A DNA stretch of 34,514 bases from Anaerolineae bacterium (GTDB lineage Bacteria > Chloroflexota > Anaerolineae > S016-19), in the NCBI GenBank assembly GCA_027016315.1, contig JALWAP010000109.1, positions 1 to 34,514 of the forward strand, read 5' to 3'. Below are positions 8,577-25,991 of this stretch, piece after piece. The position numbers were made by a program, and so were the translations under genes. The first letter of the stretch is position 1; every line of letters begins with the position of its first letter. The notes under the pieces are model-generated. The model was not told where the DNA came from. It saw nothing but the letters and a program-made list of their open reading frames with translations, and searched no databases.

Positions 8577-8605
8577 TTGACATGCTGGGACAAAGGTGAT
8601 AGCAT
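8577..8605 (+). promoter_or_regulatory. Promoter of the aroH-pheA-aroF operon
   Basis: Perfect -35 TTGACA (8577-8582), 17-bp spacer and TAGCAT (8600-8605) as -10. The predicted start near 8612 lies just before the SD of the leader ORF. Confidence 0.75.
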
Positions 8606-8634
8606 TGCTACGAGATTTCAGGCGAGGAGCCAAA

Positions 8635-8793
8635 ATGGGTAGCCGAATGTCGATCTGGAACGACAATCCGAATAAAGCAAGCTCGAGCTTTGAAGCATTC
8701 CCGCGCGTGTCTTTCCTGCGCGGGTTTTATTTTGGCTACTACTTTTTTACCGTGGGACACACGAGGCTCCGCGCCGCGGGCGATAGATCATAG
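8635..8793 (+). CDS. Phe/Tyr-rich leader peptide of the aromatic operon
   Basis: 52-codon ORF about 25 nt after the predicted transcription start. SD GAGGAG (8624-8629) is 5 nt before the ATG. Codons 31-38 (8725-8748) read Phe-Tyr-Phe-Gly-Tyr-Tyr-Phe-Phe, seven aromatic codons out of eight, with further Phe at 19, 22 and 27. The genes that follow make phenylalanine, and their DAHP synthase belongs to a Tyr/Phe-sensitive family, so a run of exactly these codons fits a control peptide like E. coli PheL. The stop TAG (8791-8793) lies between the antiterminator and terminator segments. The peptide itself probably has no function beyond translation of its codons. Confidence 0.72.
   Translation: MGSRMSIWNDNPNKASSSFEAFPRVSFLRGFYFGYYFFTVGHTRLRAAGDRS
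8700..8733 (+). terminator. Terminator-like hairpin inside the leader ORF
   Basis: Perfect 7-bp GC stem (8700-8706 with 8718-8724), 11-nt loop, then TTTTATTTT. It looks like an intrinsic terminator but lies in the translated leader, and its T-tract encodes Phe-Tyr-Phe. A following ribosome would melt it, so it may pause polymerase or stop untranslated transcripts. Confidence 0.55.
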
Positions 8794-8853
8794 CCTAAGA
8801 AGATTCCAGAGAATCCAAAGCGTGGAGCCAGAAAGGTTCCACGCTTTTTTATT
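8751..8853 (+). promoter_or_regulatory. Attenuator: alternative hairpins and intrinsic terminator
   Basis: Four ordered segments are visible. Segment 1 (CGTGGG, 8751-8756) directly follows the Phe/Tyr codons and can pair with 8768-8773. Segment 2 (GGCTCCGCG, 8765-8773) can instead pair over 9 bp, with one G-U, with segment 3 (CGTGGAGCC, 8821-8829). Segment 3 otherwise pairs with segment 4 (8835-8845) in an 11-bp stem with an AGAAA loop followed by TTTTTT (8845-8850), a strong terminator. A ribosome stalled on the Phe/Tyr codons would mask segment 1 and free 2 to block the terminator. No T-box sequence is present. Confidence 0.68.
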
Positions 8854-8874
8854 GCACCAATCTGGAGGTGAAAA

Positions 8875-9297
8875 ATGGGTTGCAAAGGCGTACGAGGAGC
8901 AACGACTGTCGAGGAGAACAATCCCGAATCGATCCTTTCGAGGACGAAAGAACTGCTCTCATGGATGGTCATCTCTAACGGGATAGAAGAAGAGGACGTG
9001 GCGGCGGCTTTCTTCACCGCAACCCCTGATCTGAACGCAGCTTTCCCTGCAGCGGCGGCAAGGGAAGTCGGCTGGACCACCGTTCCGCTGCTCGGTGCGC
9101 AAGAGCTCGACGTACAGGGTGCTCCTCCGAAAAGCATTCGCATCCTGATCCTGTGGGAAACGGACAAATCGCAGGAAGAGATCAGGCATGTATACCTTCA
9201 CGGGGCTGCAGGACTCCGGCCCGACGTACAACTGCCGGAGGTGGAGCAGAACGAAATAGAAAGATGGATAGAAAATCGCACAAACGGAGGTGAATGA
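8875..9297 (+). CDS. aroH: Chorismate mutase, AroH type
   Basis: Monofunctional chorismate mutase that rearranges chorismate to prephenate; 140 aa, of the B. subtilis AroH class. It starts with [12 protein letters not shown], giving catalytic Arg7; Arg89 (SIRILI) and Tyr107 (IRHVYL) match the active-site Arg90 and Tyr108 of the B. subtilis enzyme, and SATPDL-like and QELDV blocks are conserved. SD GGAGGTG precedes the ATG. First structural gene of the aromatic operon, right after the attenuator terminator. The stop overlaps the pheA start by 1 nt. The C-terminal tail after about residue 118 is variable. Confidence 0.95.
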
Positions 9298-10133
9298 TGT
9301 CGAGGACCGTAGTAGCTTTCCAGGGTGAACACGGCGCCTATTCGGAAGAAGCCATCCGCCAACATTTTGGCGACGAAGTCGAAACCCTGCCGCTGGGCAC
9401 GTTTGCCGACATCTTTACCTCCATCGAAGAAGGAAAAGCGGACTACGGGGTCCTGCCGGTCGAGAACTCGGTGGCAGGTTCCATCAACCAGGCCTACGAC
9501 CTGCTCCTGGAAAGGGACATACGGGTAGTCGGGGAGATTTACCTGCGTGTTCGACACTGCTTGATGGCACCCAAAGGCACAAAACTGGAAGAGATTCGGG
9601 TGGTTCGTTCACACCCACAAGCGCTTGCCCAGTGTGAAAAGACCATCGCCGAACACGGCTGGCGCGCCGAGGCAGTATACGACACGGCCGGTAGCGCCAG
9701 AGAGCTGGCCGCGTCGCCGGAGCCAGGGGTGGCTGCCATAGCGAGCGCACTGGCTGCAGAAATCTATGGGCTCGACGTGCTGGTCAAAGGCCTGGAAGAC
9801 AAGAACTGGAACATCACCAGGTTTTTCGTCCTCGGCGAGGAAGAAACCAGGCCGGCCGAAAGGAACAAGACCTCGTTGGTATTCGCAGTTCCGCACAAAC
9901 CAGGCGCCCTGGTCGAGTGCCTGAACGAATTCGCGGAGAAGAACCTCAACCTGACCAAGCTCGAATCGAGGCCCAGGCGAAACCGCCCCTGGCACTACGT
10001 GTTCTACCTCGATTGCGAAGGACATTGGAAGGAACCGAATTGCCAATCAGCGTTGATAGGATTGCTTTCGCGTGCAGCATTCGTGAAACTCTTGGGATCC
10101 TACCCTGCAGCAGAAATGCCCGACGAGGGATGA
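9297..10133 (+). CDS. pheA: Prephenate dehydratase
   Basis: Monofunctional prephenate dehydratase (278 aa) with a C-terminal ACT domain, converting prephenate to phenylpyruvate for phenylalanine synthesis. The catalytic part shows [13 protein letters not shown] (7-19), [11 protein letters not shown] (53-63), [10 protein letters not shown] (104-113) and the essential TRF motif (Thr174-Arg175-Phe176). The ACT domain has the Phe-binding signatures GALV (203-206) and ESRP (223-226), so feedback inhibition by Phe is expected. Two adjacent ATGs exist (9294 and 9297); the second is 6 nt from the SD GGAGG and is preferred. Chorismate mutase activity is supplied by the separate aroH product upstream. 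Confidence 0.95.
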
Positions 10134-10165: not shown

Positions 10166-11179
10166 ATGATAGTCGTAATGAAGAAAACCGCCACGGACAA
10201 GGAAATCGACGCCGTAATCAAGCGTATCACGGACATGGGGTTGCAGCCTCACGTCTCCCAGGGCGAGGAAAGGACGATCATCGGGATAGTAGGCCACACC
10301 CAGCCGATCGACCGCAACGTCTTCGAGATGATGAACGGGGTGGAAAAGACCGTCCCAATCCTGTCGCCGTTCAAGCTATCCAGCCGAGACTTCAAACCAG
10401 AAGACACTATCATCAGACTGAACGGGGTCAAAATCGGCGGGGAGAAGATCGTCATCATAGCAGGCCCTTGTTCCGTAGAAAGCAGAGAGCAACTTCTGGA
10501 GACCGCCCACGCGGTGAAAGAAGCAGGAGCCTCGATTCTACGGGGCGGCGCTTTCAAGCCAAGGACTTCCCCTTACTCCTTCCGGGGACTGGGGCTCAAA
10601 GGACTGGAGTTGCTGGCAGAGGCAAGGGACGAAACAGGCCTCTACGTGATCACAGAAGCCCTGTCCGCAGAAAAAGTATCCCTGGTTGCGAGTTACGCCG
10701 ATATCATCCAGATAGGCGCGAGGAACATGCAGAACTACGCCCTGCTGGAAGCTGTCGGAGCAACCAACAAGCCGGTCATGCTCAAAAGGGGAATGATGGC
10801 GACCATGCAAGAACTACTCATGTCGGCAGAATACATCCTTTCCAAGGGCAACAACCAGGTGATGCTCTGCGAGCGCGGCATCCGCACTTTTGAAACCTAC
10901 ACCAGGAACACCTTCGACATAAACGCCATACCCGCTCTGAAAATGATGACACATCTCCCCATCATCGCAGACCCAAGCCACGGCACAGGGAAATGGGAGT
11001 TGGTCACGCCAGTGGCAAGGGCGGCGATAGCAGCCGGGGCGGATGGCATCATTGTGGAAGTCCACCCTCGCCCGGAGGAAGCGCTATCGGACGGCGCTCA
11101 GTCCTTGAAGCCGGAGAAATTCGCGGCGTTGGTCAGGGAGGTTAAGGCAATAGCAGAAGCAATCGGGAGAAGTGCGTAG
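10166..11179 (+). CDS. aroF: 3-deoxy-7-phosphoheptulonate (DAHP) synthase
   Basis: Catalyses the first step of the shikimate pathway, condensing phosphoenolpyruvate with erythrose 4-phosphate; 337 aa, of the Thermotoga-type class I-beta enzymes. The N-terminal ~70 residues form the ferredoxin/ACT-like regulatory domain (IVVMKK...ERTIIGIVG). The barrel shows [58 protein letters not shown] and [11 protein letters not shown]. In T. maritima this domain mediates inhibition by Tyr and, less strongly, Phe. Start choice: an upstream ATG frame exists from 10136, but CAGGAGG (10154-10160) sits 5 nt before the ATG at 10166, where the family N-terminus begins. Last gene of the operon; no tyrA is present. 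Confidence 0.95.
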
Positions 11180-20419: not shown

Positions 20420-20424
20420 TCCGG

Positions 20425-20560
20425 TGGTTTCATACCTGGAGTGCCCCGAAACCCGGATGTCAGGGGCTTGAAGGGAGGAAGACCGGTGAAAGTCCGGCGC
20501 TGTCCCGCAACTGTAACCGTGCAAGCCGCGGAAGCCAGACACTCCCGCTTCAGGATGGTT
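20425..20560 (+). ncRNA. Cobalamin riboswitch
   Basis: The conserved core is present: GACCGGTGAAAGTCCGG, then CTGTCCCGCAACTGTAACCGT (20481-20520), followed by a B12-box-like AAGCCAGACAC (20532-20542). The flanking GGTTTCATACC at 20426 and a GGTTCCTATACC-like segment near 20557 fit the outer part of the aptamer. It senses adenosylcobalamin or a related corrinoid. A terminator at 20615-20642 follows, so control is probably by premature termination when B12 is plentiful. Exact ends are approximate. Confidence 0.93.
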
Positions 20561-20614
20561 CCTATACCCTTCGGATGAAAGGTGCGGACCGGCTTTTCGG
20601 GATGGCCGTAGGAC

Positions 20615-20689: not shown

Positions 20690-21742
20690 ATGCTGCTCGA
20701 GAAAACCATCGATCGCATCGAAGGACTCGACGAACACGCTGCTGAGCTCGCCAGGGAAAGGCAGAACCAACTCACCAAACCGCAGGGGAGCCTCGGTCGG
20801 CTGGAAGAGATATCGATCAGGCTGGCCGGGATCTCCGGCAGGCTCGATGTCCCGCTGAGCAGGAAACGCGTCATCGTCATGGCAGGCGATCACGGCGTGG
20901 CTGCAGAGGGGGTGAGCGCCTTTCCACAAGAGGTGACCCAGCAAATGGTGCTGAATTTCCTGCACGGCGGTGCGGCGATCAACGTGCTTGCCAGGCACGT
21001 CGGGGCAGAGGTCTCGGTGGTCGACATGGGCGTGGCAGCCGACTTGCCGGATCACCCAAAGCTGTTCAAGAAGAAGGTGGCCTACGGCACAAAGAACATC
21101 GCCCACGGTCCGGCCATGACCCGGGACGAAGCCGTCCGCTCCGTGGAAGCAGGGATCGAAGTCTTCGAGGCGCTCTTCGAAAACCCCGGAATAGACCTGG
21201 TCATCACAGGGGACATGGGCATCGCCAACACGACGCCTTCTTCCGCCATCATCGCCGCGATCACCGGTCGGCCCGTCCCGAAAGTGACCGGAAGGGGCAC
21301 AGGAGTAGACGAAAATACGCTGGCACACAAGATCGAGGTGATCGAAAAGGCTCTGGAGCTGAATTCGCCCGATCCGTCCGACCCGCTGGACGTGCTCGCA
21401 AAGGTCGGCGGATTCGAGATCGGAGGGATCGCTGGGGTTATCCTGGCGGCAGCATCCCACCGGGTGCCAGTGCTGGTGGACGGCATAATCTCCACAGCGG
21501 GCGCCCTGCTGGCCGGGGAAATGGCTCCTGAGAGCGTAAATTACATGTTCTCGGCACACGCTTCGGTGGAGAAAGGCCAGCGTGCGGCGCTGGAAAAGCT
21601 CGGGCTTCAGCCGATACTCGATCTGAACATGCGGCTTGGAGAAGGAACCGGCGGCGCCCTTGCAGCCTTCGTGCTGGAAGCCTCGGTGAAAATCCTGAAC
21701 GAGATGGCCACGTTCGCCCAGGCAGGCGTCTCCGAAGGCTGA
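20690..21742 (+). CDS. cobT: Nicotinate-nucleotide:dimethylbenzimidazole phosphoribosyltransferase
   Basis: 350-aa enzyme that activates the lower-ligand base (dimethylbenzimidazole) to its alpha-ribotide. Diagnostic segments are QNQLTKPQGSLGRLEE near 25-40, VMAGDHGVAAEGVSAFP, FLHGGAAINVLARH, GDMGIANTTPSSAI and the catalytic-Glu region LNMRLGEGTGGALA near 310-323. SD GGAGG lies before the ATG. First gene after the cobalamin riboswitch. Some relatives also act on adenine or phenolic bases, and the sequence alone does not decide which is used here. Confidence 0.95.
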   Translation: MLLEKTIDRIEGLDEHAAELARERQNQLTKPQGSLGRLEEISIRLAGISGRLDVPLSRKRVIVMAGDHGVAAEGVSAFPQEVTQQMVLNFLHGGAAINVLARHVGAEVSVVDMGVAADLPDHPKLFKKKVAYGTKNIAHGPAMTRDEAVRSVEAGIEVFEALFENPGIDLVITGDMGIANTTPSSAIIAAITGRPVPKVTGRGTGVDENTLAHKIEVIEKALELNSPDPSDPLDVLAKVGGFEIGGIAGVILAAASHRVPVLVDGIISTAGALLAGEMAPESVNYMFSAHASVEKGQRAALEKLGLQPILDLNMRLGEGTGGALAAFVLEASVKILNEMATFAQAGVSEG

Positions 21743-21777
21743 GGGATACCTCGCCGGGTTCTGGCAAAGGGGGAAAG

Positions 21778-22506
21778 TTGCTGCGTAGATTCTTCCTGGC
21801 ACTCCAGTTTCTGACCATATCCCCTTCGTTCTGGAAAGGGGAACTGTGGCCGGAAGACCTTGGGCGCTCCGTGGCGTTCTACCCGCTGGTAGGGGCGCTG
21901 ATAGGAGGGACGATCTGGGGAGTCGCAGCGCTCGCGGGGAACGGAGTGACTCTCGGCATAAAGGCTTTTCTGCTCCTGGTCACGTGGGTGGTCATCACCG
22001 GCGCGCTGCACGTGGACGGCTTCCTGGATTCCTGCGATGGGCTCTTCGGCGGGATGACGCCCGAGCGCCGACTGGAGATCATGCACGACGTCCACTACGG
22101 CTCGTTCGCACTGGCAGGCGGAGCGATGCTCTTCCTCGGTAAATACGCCGGGCTGCAGGCGATCGGAACGTCTTCCATCCTGCTCCTGATTCCGGTTCTC
22201 GGAAGATGGGGAATGGCGCTTTCCATCTGGGTCTTCCCGTACGCAAGAAAGGAGGGCCTGGGAAAGGCGGTGAAAGACGGAATGTGCGCCATTGATCTGG
22301 CGGCGGCGCTTCTTACCTCGCTCCTGATCTCCGCCCTTTTCGGTTGGAAAGGGCTTGCAGCATGGGTCATCGGCACGGCCTCAGCGCTGGCAGTGGGAAA
22401 GTACGCATCGGCGAAGCTCGGCGGCGGGATCACCGGCGATATCTACGGCGCTGTATGCGAGGTAACCGAGCTCGCAACACTACTTGGAATCGCGGTACTC
22501 CAATGA
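21778..22506 (+). CDS. cobS: Adenosylcobinamide-GDP ribazoletransferase
   Basis: 242-aa membrane enzyme that joins adenosylcobinamide-GDP to the alpha-ribazole made through CobT, giving adenosylcobalamin (phosphate). It starts with RRFFLALQFLTISP and carries the acidic active-site motif HVDGFLDSCDGLFGG (78-92), with several transmembrane segments. The start is a TTG; the sequence AAAGGGGG just upstream is a workable SD and no ATG lies near the family start. The stop overlaps the next ATG by 3 of 4 bases (ATGA). Confidence 0.93.
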   Translation: MLRRFFLALQFLTISPSFWKGELWPEDLGRSVAFYPLVGALIGGTIWGVAALAGNGVTLGIKAFLLLVTWVVITGALHVDGFLDSCDGLFGGMTPERRLEIMHDVHYGSFALAGGAMLFLGKYAGLQAIGTSSILLLIPVLGRWGMALSIWVFPYARKEGLGKAVKDGMCAIDLAAALLTSLLISALFGWKGLAAWVIGTASALAVGKYASAKLGGGITGDIYGAVCEVTELATLLGIAVLQ

Positions 22507-23429
22507 TCGAACCGATTGCGGCGTTCCTGTTGGATCTGGCTTTCGGCGACCCGCCAAACAAGCTTCACCCGGTGGCCTGGCTCGGGAAAGCGATCGATGT
22601 GGCAGCGCACAAAGCCCCGGATTCTTCGGCTGCACGATTCCTTTACGGCTTGGCGCTGGTTCTGCTCGGTGCGACGGGCAGCGCCGCGCTGGCGCGCCTG
22701 ATCCTACAACTTCCATCGTCGACCCGAAAGCCCACCGAAGTGCTCCTCCTCAAGACGACCATCGGCGCACGCGGATTGGTGGACGCTGCAGATTCAGTTG
22801 CGTCCGCGCTGGAGCGGGGAGATGTAGAAAATGCCAGACACCTCGTCGGATGGCATCTGGTGAGCCGGGACACTTCTTCACTCTCGCCGGAAGAACTGGC
22901 AGGGGCAACGGTCGAATCGGTGGCCGAGAACCTGACGGACGGTCTCCTCTCCCCTTTGCTCTACTACGCAGTCGGTGGTCTCCCCGCAGCGTGGGCATAC
23001 AGGTTCGTAAACACGTGCGATTCCATGCTCGGGTACAGGGACGAAGAACACGAATGGCTCGGGAAAGCGGCCGCCAGGGTCGACGACGCGCTGAACTGGA
23101 TCCCAGCCCGCGTCGCAGCCGCAAGCATCGTCGCCGCAGCAGCCATCCTCGGGTTCGACACGAAAAATGCGTGGAAAACGATGCTTTCGCAGCACAGCAG
23201 GACGGCAAGCCCCAACGCCGGATGGACGATGAGCGCGGCAGCCGGGGCGCTGCACGTCACCCTGAGCAAACGGGGCCATTATTCGCTGGAAGGAGGCGAT
23301 CGACGGAAAAGCCACAGGACGATTCGCGAAGCCATCCGACTGATCGAAACAGCGTTTCTGCTGGATCTGGCGCTCGTGACGCTCGTCTCCGCCATCGTCT
23401 CCCACATTGGAAAAAGGCGGGCAGGATGA
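22503..23429 (+). CDS. cbiB: Adenosylcobinamide-phosphate synthase
   Basis: 308-aa membrane protein that attaches the aminopropanol (phosphate) arm to cobyric acid. Diagnostic segments: the N-terminus FLLDLAFGDPPNKLHPVAWLG, ESVAENLTDGLLSPLLYYAVGG, NTCDSMLGYRDEEHEWLGKAAARVDD and SPNAGWTMSAAAGAL. The true start is the ATG at 22503, overlapping the cobS stop; the frame is open to 22344 only by chance within cobS. The stop also overlaps the cobD start by 4 nt. Called cobD in some naming systems. Confidence 0.93.
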   Translation: MIEPIAAFLLDLAFGDPPNKLHPVAWLGKAIDVAAHKAPDSSAARFLYGLALVLLGATGSAALARLILQLPSSTRKPTEVLLLKTTIGARGLVDAADSVASALERGDVENARHLVGWHLVSRDTSSLSPEELAGATVESVAENLTDGLLSPLLYYAVGGLPAAWAYRFVNTCDSMLGYRDEEHEWLGKAAARVDDALNWIPARVAAASIVAAAAILGFDTKNAWKTMLSQHSRTASPNAGWTMSAAAGALHVTLSKRGHYSLEGGDRRKSHRTIREAIRLIETAFLLDLALVTLVSAIVSHIGKRRAG

Positions 23430-24505
23430 TAGAACCAAGACAGCAGTTGACGGAAACAGGAACGGACGATCATGGAGGCATCGTCGAATCGGAACTGATC
23501 GCACTCGGCATCTCACCCAACGAAGTGCTCGATTTCAGCGTCTCCACGAACCCTTTTGGCCCTCCCAGGTCGGTACTGGATGCTGTAGCCAGTGCAAGGT
23601 TCGACCGATACCCGGACAGGTCGGCGCTTCGGCTCAGGGAAGCCATTGCCGAACGGGAGGGGACATCGGCGGATTGCGTGGTGGTCGGGAACGGAGCGGT
23701 GCAAATCATCTGGGCAGCCGCGTTTTCCTTCCTGGAACCTGGGCGAAAGGCTCTCGTCGTTACCCCGACTTTCGGCGAATACGAGGTGGCGAGCAGGCTT
23801 GCGGGCGGGACGGTGGTGCGGTTCTCGAGGACGACGGAAAGCGGCGGCTTCCGGTTAGACGTCCGTCGGCTGGAGCACACGCTCTCAGATGTCCAACCGG
23901 CCGTAGTGTGGCTGTGCAACCCGAACAACCCAACCGGCGAATATCTCACACCATCCGAAATACGGCGATTGTATCGCGCCGCCCCGGAGTCGCTGTTCGT
24001 CGTAGACGAAGCCTACGCCAGCTTCATGCCAGATTTTCAGTCCCTGCACGGGTTGGAACGTCTCCTACGCATCAGATCCCTCACAAAAGACTTCGCTGTT
24101 CCCGGTCTTCGGCTCGGCTACGCGGTGGGGAGCCGGAACGTCGTACAGGCGCTTCGGAAGATGATCCCACCCTGGAGCGTGAATGCTCCGGCAATGGAGG
24201 CCGGGATCGCCATGCTAAGGGACGAAGAATTCCTGCGCGATTCCATCCCAAGGCTGCTGGACGAAAGCGGCAGGCTGAGGGAAGCAATCGCGCAGGCCGG
24301 ATGGGAAGTGTTGCGGTCGCCGGTGCACTACTTCCTGGTGCGTGTCGGCAACGCCACGGCTTTCAGGCGCAGGATGCTCGTGAATCGAAAGATCATGGTT
24401 CGGGACTGCACTTCCTTCGGGTTGCCGGATTACATCAGGATCTCTCCCAGGCGCCCAGCGGAAAACGACCTGCTGATTTCTGCCATGGAGGAGGCACATG
24501 GGTAA
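23426..24505 (+). CDS. cobD: L-threonine-O-3-phosphate decarboxylase
   Basis: 359-aa PLP enzyme of aminotransferase fold class I (HisC-like) that makes (R)-1-amino-2-propanol phosphate for CbiB. Visible: DFSVSTNPFGPP at the N-terminus, NPNNPTGEYL (165-174), FVVDEAYASF, the PLP Lys221 in SLTKDFAVPGLRLGY, and a C-terminal RISPRRPAEND. Context (next to cbiB and cobQ) favours this over histidinol-phosphate aminotransferase, which it resembles. The start at 23426 has ATGA overlap with cbiB; the frame extends upstream to 22484 through cbiB only as an artefact. Confidence 0.9.
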   Translation: MIEPRQQLTETGTDDHGGIVESELIALGISPNEVLDFSVSTNPFGPPRSVLDAVASARFDRYPDRSALRLREAIAEREGTSADCVVVGNGAVQIIWAAAFSFLEPGRKALVVTPTFGEYEVASRLAGGTVVRFSRTTESGGFRLDVRRLEHTLSDVQPAVVWLCNPNNPTGEYLTPSEIRRLYRAAPESLFVVDEAYASFMPDFQSLHGLERLLRIRSLTKDFAVPGLRLGYAVGSRNVVQALRKMIPPWSVNAPAMEAGIAMLRDEEFLRDSIPRLLDESGRLREAIAQAGWEVLRSPVHYFLVRVGNATAFRRRMLVNRKIMVRDCTSFGLPDYIRISPRRPAENDLLISAMEEAHG

Positions 24506-25991
24506 AGCGCTGATGGTTCAGGGCACGGCTTCTTCCGTCGGCAAGAGCCTGCTGGTGACGGCGCTCTGCCGGATATACCGCAGGCGAGGGGTGAAAGTTG
24601 CTCCGTTCAAGGCGCAAAACATGTCCAACAACGCCGCCATCACGGTGGAAGGCGGGGAGATTGGAAGAGCGCAGGCGCTGCAAGCGATAGCCGCCGGAGT
24701 AGAGCCCACCGTGGAGATGAACCCCGTGCTCCTGAAACCGGAATCTGACATGAGGTCGCAAGTGGTGGTTCTTGGCAAAGCTTGGCGAACCCTACCCGCG
24801 GGAGAATTCTACCGACAAAAGGACGTGCTGTGGAACGCCGTCACACGGTCCCTCGATTTACTCCTTTCCCGCTACGATCTGGTGATAATCGAAGGGGCTG
24901 GCAGCTCAGCGGAGCTGAACCTGAGGCACGGGGACATCGTCAACATGGCAGTGGCGAAATACGCCGCAGCTCCGGTGCTCCTGGTGGGCGACATCGAGCG
25001 CGGGGGCATTTTCGCCCAGCTCCTCGGCACGCTCTGGCTGCTCTCTCCGGACGAAAGAAGGCTGGTTCGGGGGCTGGTCGTGAACAAATTCAGGGGCGAT
25101 GCAGGCCTGTTCGTCAGAGGGATCGAAATCCTGCGGGAGAAAAGCGGGCTCCCGGTGCTGGGAGTCGTGCCGTACATCCACGATCTAAAGCTGCCGGAAG
25201 AAGATGCTGCGACACTCGGCGGCAGGACACACCGAACCGGCAGCACCATCGTCGCCGTGGTGCACCTGCCGCACATCTCCAATTTCGACGATTTCGATCC
25301 GCTGAGCGCCGAGAAGGGCGTGGAAGTGAGATTCGTGACCGACCCGGCCGGGCTAAAAGGCGCCTCCGCGGTAGCCATACCCGGCACGAAGAGCACCATC
25401 GCGGACCTGACATGGATGCGGCGCAGCGGGATGTCAGATGCAGTAACGGCTTTCGCCAAAGCGGGCGGAAGCGTGGTCGGGATCTGCGGGGGCTACCAAA
25501 TGCTCGGCAGAAGCATTTCCGACCCAGAGCATGTGGAATCGGACGTGGAGCATGTAAATGCACTCGGGCTGCTGCCGGTGAGAACCAGGTTCTCCAAAGC
25601 GAAATCGACGAGCCGCGCCGAGGCTGTCGTGGAACAGGGGCTCCCGGGGTGGATGCGCTCCCTCGCCGGGCTAAGGGTAAAAGGGTACGAAATCCACAAC
25701 GGGGAGACCTCGGGGAACCGGGCCTGGCTGAAGATCGTGAAGAGGAACGGACGCCACGTGCGAATACCGGATGGCCACGTCAGTCGGCTGGGGCGGATCT
25801 GGGGCACGTACCTCCACGGGATCTTCGAAAACATCCCTCTCAGGCGGGCGTGGCTCGAAAGCATCGGCTGGCCCGGAGGTGCCAGCGGGGCAGAAGAATT
25901 TTCACTGGAAAAGGAGATCGACAGGCTGGCGGATCACGTCGAGCGACACCTGGACATGAGGCTGCTCGATTCCATGTGGATGGAGCGGTAG
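24498..25991 (+). CDS. cobQ: Cobyric acid synthase
   Basis: 497-aa glutamine-dependent amidase that amidates four carboxylates of adenosylcobyrinic acid a,c-diamide. The N-terminal ATP-binding domain has QGTASSVGKSLL (8-19) and FKAQNMSNNA (37-46); the middle has GDIERGGIFAQL; the C-terminal glutamine amidotransferase domain has the nucleophile Cys330 in GICGGYQMLG and the His in YLHGIFEN. Overlaps cobD by 8 nt, with GGAGG inside the cobD end as SD. Last gene of the operon; corrin-ring genes, cobU/cobP and cobA are not in the window. Confidence 0.94.
   Translation: MGKALMVQGTASSVGKSLLVTALCRIYRRRGVKVAPFKAQNMSNNAAITVEGGEIGRAQALQAIAAGVEPTVEMNPVLLKPESDMRSQVVVLGKAWRTLPAGEFYRQKDVLWNAVTRSLDLLLSRYDLVIIEGAGSSAELNLRHGDIVNMAVAKYAAAPVLLVGDIERGGIFAQLLGTLWLLSPDERRLVRGLVVNKFRGDAGLFVRGIEILREKSGLPVLGVVPYIHDLKLPEEDAATLGGRTHRTGSTIVAVVHLPHISNFDDFDPLSAEKGVEVRFVTDPAGLKGASAVAIPGTKSTIADLTWMRRSGMSDAVTAFAKAGGSVVGICGGYQMLGRSISDPEHVESDVEHVNALGLLPVRTRFSKAKSTSRAEAVVEQGLPGWMRSLAGLRVKGYEIHNGETSGNRAWLKIVKRNGRHVRIPDGHVSRLGRIWGTYLHGIFENIPLRRAWLESIGWPGGASGAEEFSLEKEIDRLADHVERHLDMRLLDSMWMER

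Follow-up and report, generated by a model that had tools for sequence, protein, structure and literature searches.

A probable ribosome-mediated attenuator with mixed phenylalanine and tyrosine control codons upstream of aroH-pheA-aroF in Chloroflexota

The aroH-pheA-aroF operon of an Anaerolineae-type Chloroflexota MAG is, with a probability of about 0.92 as judged from sequence, controlled by ribosome-mediated transcription attenuation, with the charging of tRNA-Phe and tRNA-Tyr as the sensed signal. The operon lies on the forward (+) strand of a 34,514-nucleotide stretch of DNA, analysed at full length and referred to here as the window; the source assembly (G000) comprises 306 contigs and is 92% complete and 5.9% contaminated. 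The reading is built on the anatomy of the leader, its conservation, the covariation of its alternative pairings and the match between control codons and operon; on these grounds ribosome stalling, a response of read-through and the direction in which the operon is regulated are inferred. The initial annotation of this DNA had set the attenuator against Firmicutes-type genomes, a framing of the host that is to be replaced, as the genome belongs to Chloroflexota.

The leader opens with a candidate sigma-70 promoter (8577-8605), in which TTGACA (8577-8582) and TAGCAT (8600-8605) are separated by a 17-nt spacer and a TG precedes the -10 box. The promoter is present as annotated; the assignment is a consensus match that is weak on its own, since about 0.6 such sites are expected in the 821 bases scanned. 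A Shine-Dalgarno (SD) sequence, GAGGAG (8624-8629), lies 5 nt before the ATG at 8635 and introduces a leader ORF (8635-8793) of 52 codons that ends with TAG at 8791-8793 and translates as MGSRMSIWNDNPNKASSSFEAFPRVSFLRGFYFGYYFFTVGHTRLRAAGDRS. Both the SD-led ORF and its aromatic run were confirmed: positions 8725-8748 read TTT TAT TTT GGC TAC TAC TTT TTT (Phe-Tyr-Phe-Gly-Tyr-Tyr-Phe-Phe), with seven aromatic codons out of eight. A six-frame scan of the 34.5-kb window gives no second site with at least six Phe or Tyr codons in eight, and when 8611-8874 was shuffled 3000 times with dinucleotides preserved, 7/8 aromatic codons never arose.

The genes of the operon were identified by their Pfam domains. 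They comprise aroH, a type I chorismate mutase (8875-9297; CM_1, PF07736), pheA, a prephenate dehydratase (PDT, PF00800) with an ACT domain (PF01842, below its cut-off) at 9294-10133, and an aroF-like DAHP synthase (10166-11179; DAHP_synth_1, PF00793) with a ferredoxin-like N-terminal domain (PF18152). For the last gene, 10166 is the approximate beginning of the first domain rather than a start codon, and the listed ORF opens at 9917. These domains bear out the annotated combination of phenylalanine synthesis with a DAHP synthase, and the Phe/Tyr run corresponds to the end product of the operon.

Beyond the stop codon, a 13-bp terminator hairpin (8817-8847) begins 23 nt past the stop and is followed by TTTATT. 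It is formed by segment 3 (8817-8829) and segment 4 (8835-8847, extending to 8853 with the U-tract), in agreement with the stem that had been proposed in the region of 8821-8829 and 8835-8845. The antiterminator consists of 10 bp between segment 2 (8765-8774) and 8820-8829, and the two structures exclude each other because they share the 5' arm of the terminator. The initial annotation had recognized this pairing as 9 bp (8765-8773 with 8821-8829); the pairing stands, with the length revised to 10 bp. Segment 2 is set off by 16 nt on either side, from the last control codon upstream and from the stop codon downstream. The region 8610-8860 as a whole folds with a z-score of -5.15. Folds in which the bases under a ribosome were masked, a model that assumes a fixed, idealised footprint and equilibrium folding, gave an antiterminator probability of 0.999 with the ribosome on the first control codon and a terminator probability of 0.975 with the ribosome at the stop codon.

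Three mutually exclusive hairpins had been described, of which the terminator and antiterminator were recovered. The third, a 1:2 protector hairpin in which 8768-8773 would pair with the stretch behind the control codons, was not found in the folds of the window's leader. As no such hairpin competes, the antiterminator would form even without a ribosome, with a probability of 0.99 when segment 4 is not yet made. An untranslated transcript would thus also be antiterminated, and segments 2-4 alone leave the classical basal state unexplained. The absence of the 1:2 hairpin limits the claim of a trp-like layout and leaves the claim of mechanism untouched. Folding of the complete untranslated transcript predicts that segment 2 (8766-8776) pairs with the leader's SD region (8621-8631); this pairing could silence translation of the leader once a transcript is finished.

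The proposed mechanism is as follows. When Phe or Tyr is scarce, the ribosome would stall on the Phe-Tyr-Phe-Gly-Tyr-Tyr-Phe-Phe run and leave 8765-8774 exposed. Once 8820-8829 has been transcribed, the exposed segment would pair with it, the terminator would be blocked and RNA polymerase would enter aroH-pheA-aroF. When both amino acids are ample, the ribosome would reach the stop codon at 8791 and cover or pass segment 2, so that 8817-8829 would pair with 8835-8847 and transcription would end ahead of aroH.

Most of the Chloroflexota aroH loci collected carry a short Phe/Tyr-rich ORF upstream, and removal of repeats left 55 distinct leaders. The leader of a relative from the same genus reads RGFYFAYYYFF. 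At planctomycete loci, at least six aromatic codons in nine were found in 0 of 31. The 55 runs together hold 187 Tyr, 175 Phe and 17 Trp control codons; two leaders (L015 and L085) have seven consecutive Tyr codons each, and some others use mostly Phe. Read in frame, the runs contain 362 TTY/TAY codons, one TTG and no TTA, TAA or TAG, an excess toward which the selection of runs by a search for aromatic codons is itself biased, and the other two frames of the same runs contain many TTA/TTG and some TAG codons. Since Leu and stop codons, which only a change of third base separates from Phe and Tyr, are almost missing, selection appears to act on the amino acids of the ORF frame and not on a U-rich RNA. 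A start codon with an SD sequence was recovered by a simple rule in about half of the relatives. The leader ORF is nevertheless predicted to be translatable, given the SD sequence and ORF in the window and the coding signature over the 55 relatives.

The RNA switch is conserved together with the peptide. A terminator lies 20-46 nt past the stop codon in all 55 leaders, that of L023 having been re-placed by hand. In duplex tests, the pairing between segment 2 and the 5' arm of the terminator is better than in shuffled sequences at p ≤ 0.05 in 36 of the 55 leaders, and the remaining 19 showed no significant antiterminator. Where the arm deviates from the common AGCGTGGAGC (L004, L011, L024 and L078), segment 2 deviates to match. 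The most telling covariation test concerns the terminator loop, because loop bases past the conserved arm barely aid the terminator yet lengthen the antiterminator. In an alignment of 38 leaders, 71 of 114 cells show these bases complementary to the neighbours of segment 2; 2000 shuffles, which, like the other shuffle tests, ignore relatedness, gave 51.6 on average and never more than 63. Under the same masking model, the antiterminator has a probability above 0.5 in 54 of the 55 leaders when the ribosome is on the first control codon, and the terminator forms in 55 of 55 when it is at the stop codon. Folding suggests that 1:2 protector hairpins appear in many relatives. The initial annotation had named loss of the frame or codon run beside conserved hairpins as the pattern that speaks against attenuation; in the related genomes, frame, codon run, terminator and antiterminator are retained together despite sequence change, which supports its core reading of ribosome-mediated Phe/Tyr attenuation of aroH-pheA-aroF.

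An additional element, absent from the initial annotation, is a GC-rich hairpin (CCCGCGCG...CGCGGG) inside the leader ORF (8700-8724, CCCGCGCGTGTCTTTCCTGCGCGGG). It sits directly 5' of the control codons and is followed by TTTTATTTT, so that the first nine bases of the control codons double as a U-rich stretch behind it. This hairpin and UUUUAUUUU of the control codons may constitute a second, early terminator or pause site that halts untranslated transcripts and replaces the 1:2 protector hairpin, a tentative addition to the attenuator that is judged less likely than not. None of 200 synonymous-codon randomisations was as stable as the window's internal hairpin. Of the 24 leaders put to this test, 15 were more stable than their randomisations at p ≤ 0.05; the same-genus leader L002, however, was not (p = 0.23). 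A strong hairpin adjoining a U-rich stretch occurs in 18 of the 55 leaders in several sequence forms, including CCCGCGC/GCGCGGG and CCCACGC/GCGTGGG, a pair in which a synonymous difference between CGC and CGT is compensated on the opposite arm (L030). Phe codons alone, on the other hand, already yield U-rich stretches. In the hairpin-selected leaders, Tyr within the first three control codons is encoded by TAT in 11 of 11 cases, as opposed to 35% in the remaining run.

The folds provide a further argument that does not hold on the tree. Without a ribosome, the antiterminator forms in 15 of the 18 leaders with an internal hairpin and in 10 of the 37 without one (Fisher p = 1e-4), the median antiterminator probability in the latter group being 0.16. 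This complementarity between internal hairpin and unprotected segment 2 is strong row by row, but it is represented by six independent pairs on the tree and has no support after phylogenetic correction. The association is also partly built in: when folded, the internal hairpin by itself leaves segment 2 free.

That the terminator instead belongs to a protein or small-molecule switch (TRAP-like or a riboswitch), with the short ORF incidental or translated merely for reinitiation, is very improbable. Terminators with alternative pairings do serve such systems, and a protein is conceivable as an additional input, but no tool result indicates one, and the in-frame, pyrimidine-ending Phe/Tyr codons across 55 leaders, together with the variation of leader codons with the amino acid of the downstream gene, argue against a ligand as the sensed signal. 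Nor does Rfam supply a match: no amino-acid leader family scored above its curated threshold, the sole leader match listed being Leu_leader with 14.5 bits against 50, and a scan at a permissive threshold returned matches at chance level. Direct binding of uncharged tRNA-Phe or tRNA-Tyr by the leader RNA, as in a T-box, is the least credible reading. In its favour, T-boxes were found in 60 of 60 class members searched, although they precede trpE and often pheS and not aroH; the covariance-model scan already contradicts it, with no T-box (RF00230) match in the window and none at gathering score at the aroH loci of 20 relatives.

The Phe/Tyr leader is widespread in the phylum. A covariance model of the leader matches 122 of 199 same-class relatives, and the arrangement recurs in about a hundred Chloroflexota species. 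The model also matches families outside the class, with aroH-like genes downstream in the loci inspected by eye; as the aroH leader thus occurs beyond the window's class, a culturable host may exist for tests. A second covariance-model match (L196) proved to be an Asp-rich gene end and was discarded. In one genome (L190, G136:C16), a Phe/Tyr leader, LFFGYFYFY, with a similar terminator precedes a putative substrate-binding protein of an ABC transporter, whose ligand may be an aromatic amino acid or precursor.

Leaders with other control codons, obtained as second copies or by targeted searches, precede other amino-acid genes. They were picked after inspection, and their codons appear to match the genes behind them; pheST, tyrS and aspartokinase were identified by reading sequences and by searches made with them rather than by Pfam. 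Phe-only leaders precede pheST in one lineage, f35 (FFSFFFF in L191, FFGFAF in L194, and also L202), and a Tyr-only class precedes tyrS (YVYGY in L197, YAYYY in L184 and YYAYIY in L188). The tyrS products of L184 and L188, each with the Tyr-rich leader upstream, are extended at the N-terminus by a long stretch that looks like a B3/4 domain. Met/Thr leaders are found before aspartokinase (TMMTTT in L266, MTTTMMTTT in L268, MMTTTMMTMT in L195, and also L291), with Thr alone in L186; Met and Thr are two end products of the aspartate pathway. Runs of Ile, Leu and Val codons precede ilvB, among them one in the source genome (L334, G000:C134), where a short ORF ending in ALVVIVIALIIIELLLSEEPPVHGAA is followed by a GGCCGCTC...GAGCGGCC terminator and then acetolactate synthase; similar runs occur in L328, L333, L340, L343, L344 and L347. 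Because short Leu/Ile/Val-rich ORFs can be membrane peptides, it is position and terminator that support the ilvB cases. One genome has an HHHH leader before hisG (L375). The other leaders in the source genome are a sample.

T-boxes occur alongside these leaders. They are carried by trpE, and in several families T-box matches immediately precede pheS. T-box-like terminators (TCGTCCC) were observed upstream of pheS in most families other than f35 (L203, L208, L214, L226 and others). At pheST there is an apparent exchange of sensors between families, T-box versus Phe leader peptide. The window itself also holds a cobalamin riboswitch (20422-20566, + strand, 52.9 bits) upstream of cobalamin genes (20690-25991) with DBI_PRT, CobS, aminotransferase class I/II and CbiA/GATase_3.

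The window's leader would work in the same way as the proteobacterial attenuators for phe, his and trp. The pheA leader (pheL) of E. coli is an attenuator with a Phe-only control-codon run; the two leaders share a short ORF with control codons, a terminator before the structural gene, an overlapping antiterminator and a phenylalanine-synthesis target. The window's leader differs in mixing Phe with Tyr, the latter slightly commoner family-wide, in its aroH-pheA-aroF operon and Chloroflexota host, and in the lack of an Rfam family match. Its ORF also contains a hairpin ahead of the control codons, which the textbook layout lacks. In E. coli, a Phe-rich leader attenuator also precedes pheST, which encodes phenylalanyl-tRNA synthetase. 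The leaders of the f35 lineage likewise consist of Phe codons and stand before pheST, whereas T-box-type control at pheS is seen in several other Chloroflexota families.

Comparative genomics has revealed peptide leaders outside Proteobacteria, namely the trp, ilvB and leuS attenuators of Actinobacteria (PMC1262725) and the His leaders of Firmicutes (PMC2965389, PMC9413887); like the leader described here, they have a terminator and, in part, an antiterminator. The actinobacterial survey reported no conserved RNA regulatory structure before phenylalanine/tyrosine operons (PMC1262725), and no Chloroflexota leaders were found in these three papers. In an Rfam-based survey that included five Chloroflexi genomes, amino-acid leader models were limited to Trp, His, Leu and Thr. 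Literature searches on leader-peptide attenuation in Chloroflexi or Chloroflexus and on tyrosine codons returned nothing relevant; a wider survey (Lopatovskaya et al. 2010, Mol Biol 44:128) may mention Chloroflexota. T-box leaders have been described in Chloroflexota before ile tRNA ligase, trpE and trpB-like genes (PMC2494555). These belong to the same phylum and likewise sense aminoacylation, and those of trpE were confirmed in this analysis; a T-box reads a single tRNA, whereas one leader peptide can answer to two amino acids. As far as found, the attenuator thus represents a known mechanism in a phylum new to it, with mixed Phe/Tyr control and possibly an extra terminator inside the ORF.

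These results extend peptide-leader attenuation to Chloroflexota, where it coexists with T-boxes, and the usual split between leader peptides in Proteobacteria and T-boxes in Gram-positive-type lineages therefore fails here. With some reserve, and at odds short of even, it may be suggested that leader-peptide attenuators form a broad network in Chloroflexota beside the T-boxes, reading two or three amino acids at a time (Phe and Tyr at aroH-pheA-aroF, Met and Thr at aspartokinase, Ile, Leu and Val at ilvB), and that in one subtype the control codons also serve as U-tract for a terminator inside the ORF, by which untranslated transcripts are ended. The apparent control of pheST by a T-box in certain families, and by a Phe leader in one other, offers a traceable case of sensor replacement. 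By means of mixed leaders, one cis element could monitor two end products of a branched pathway.
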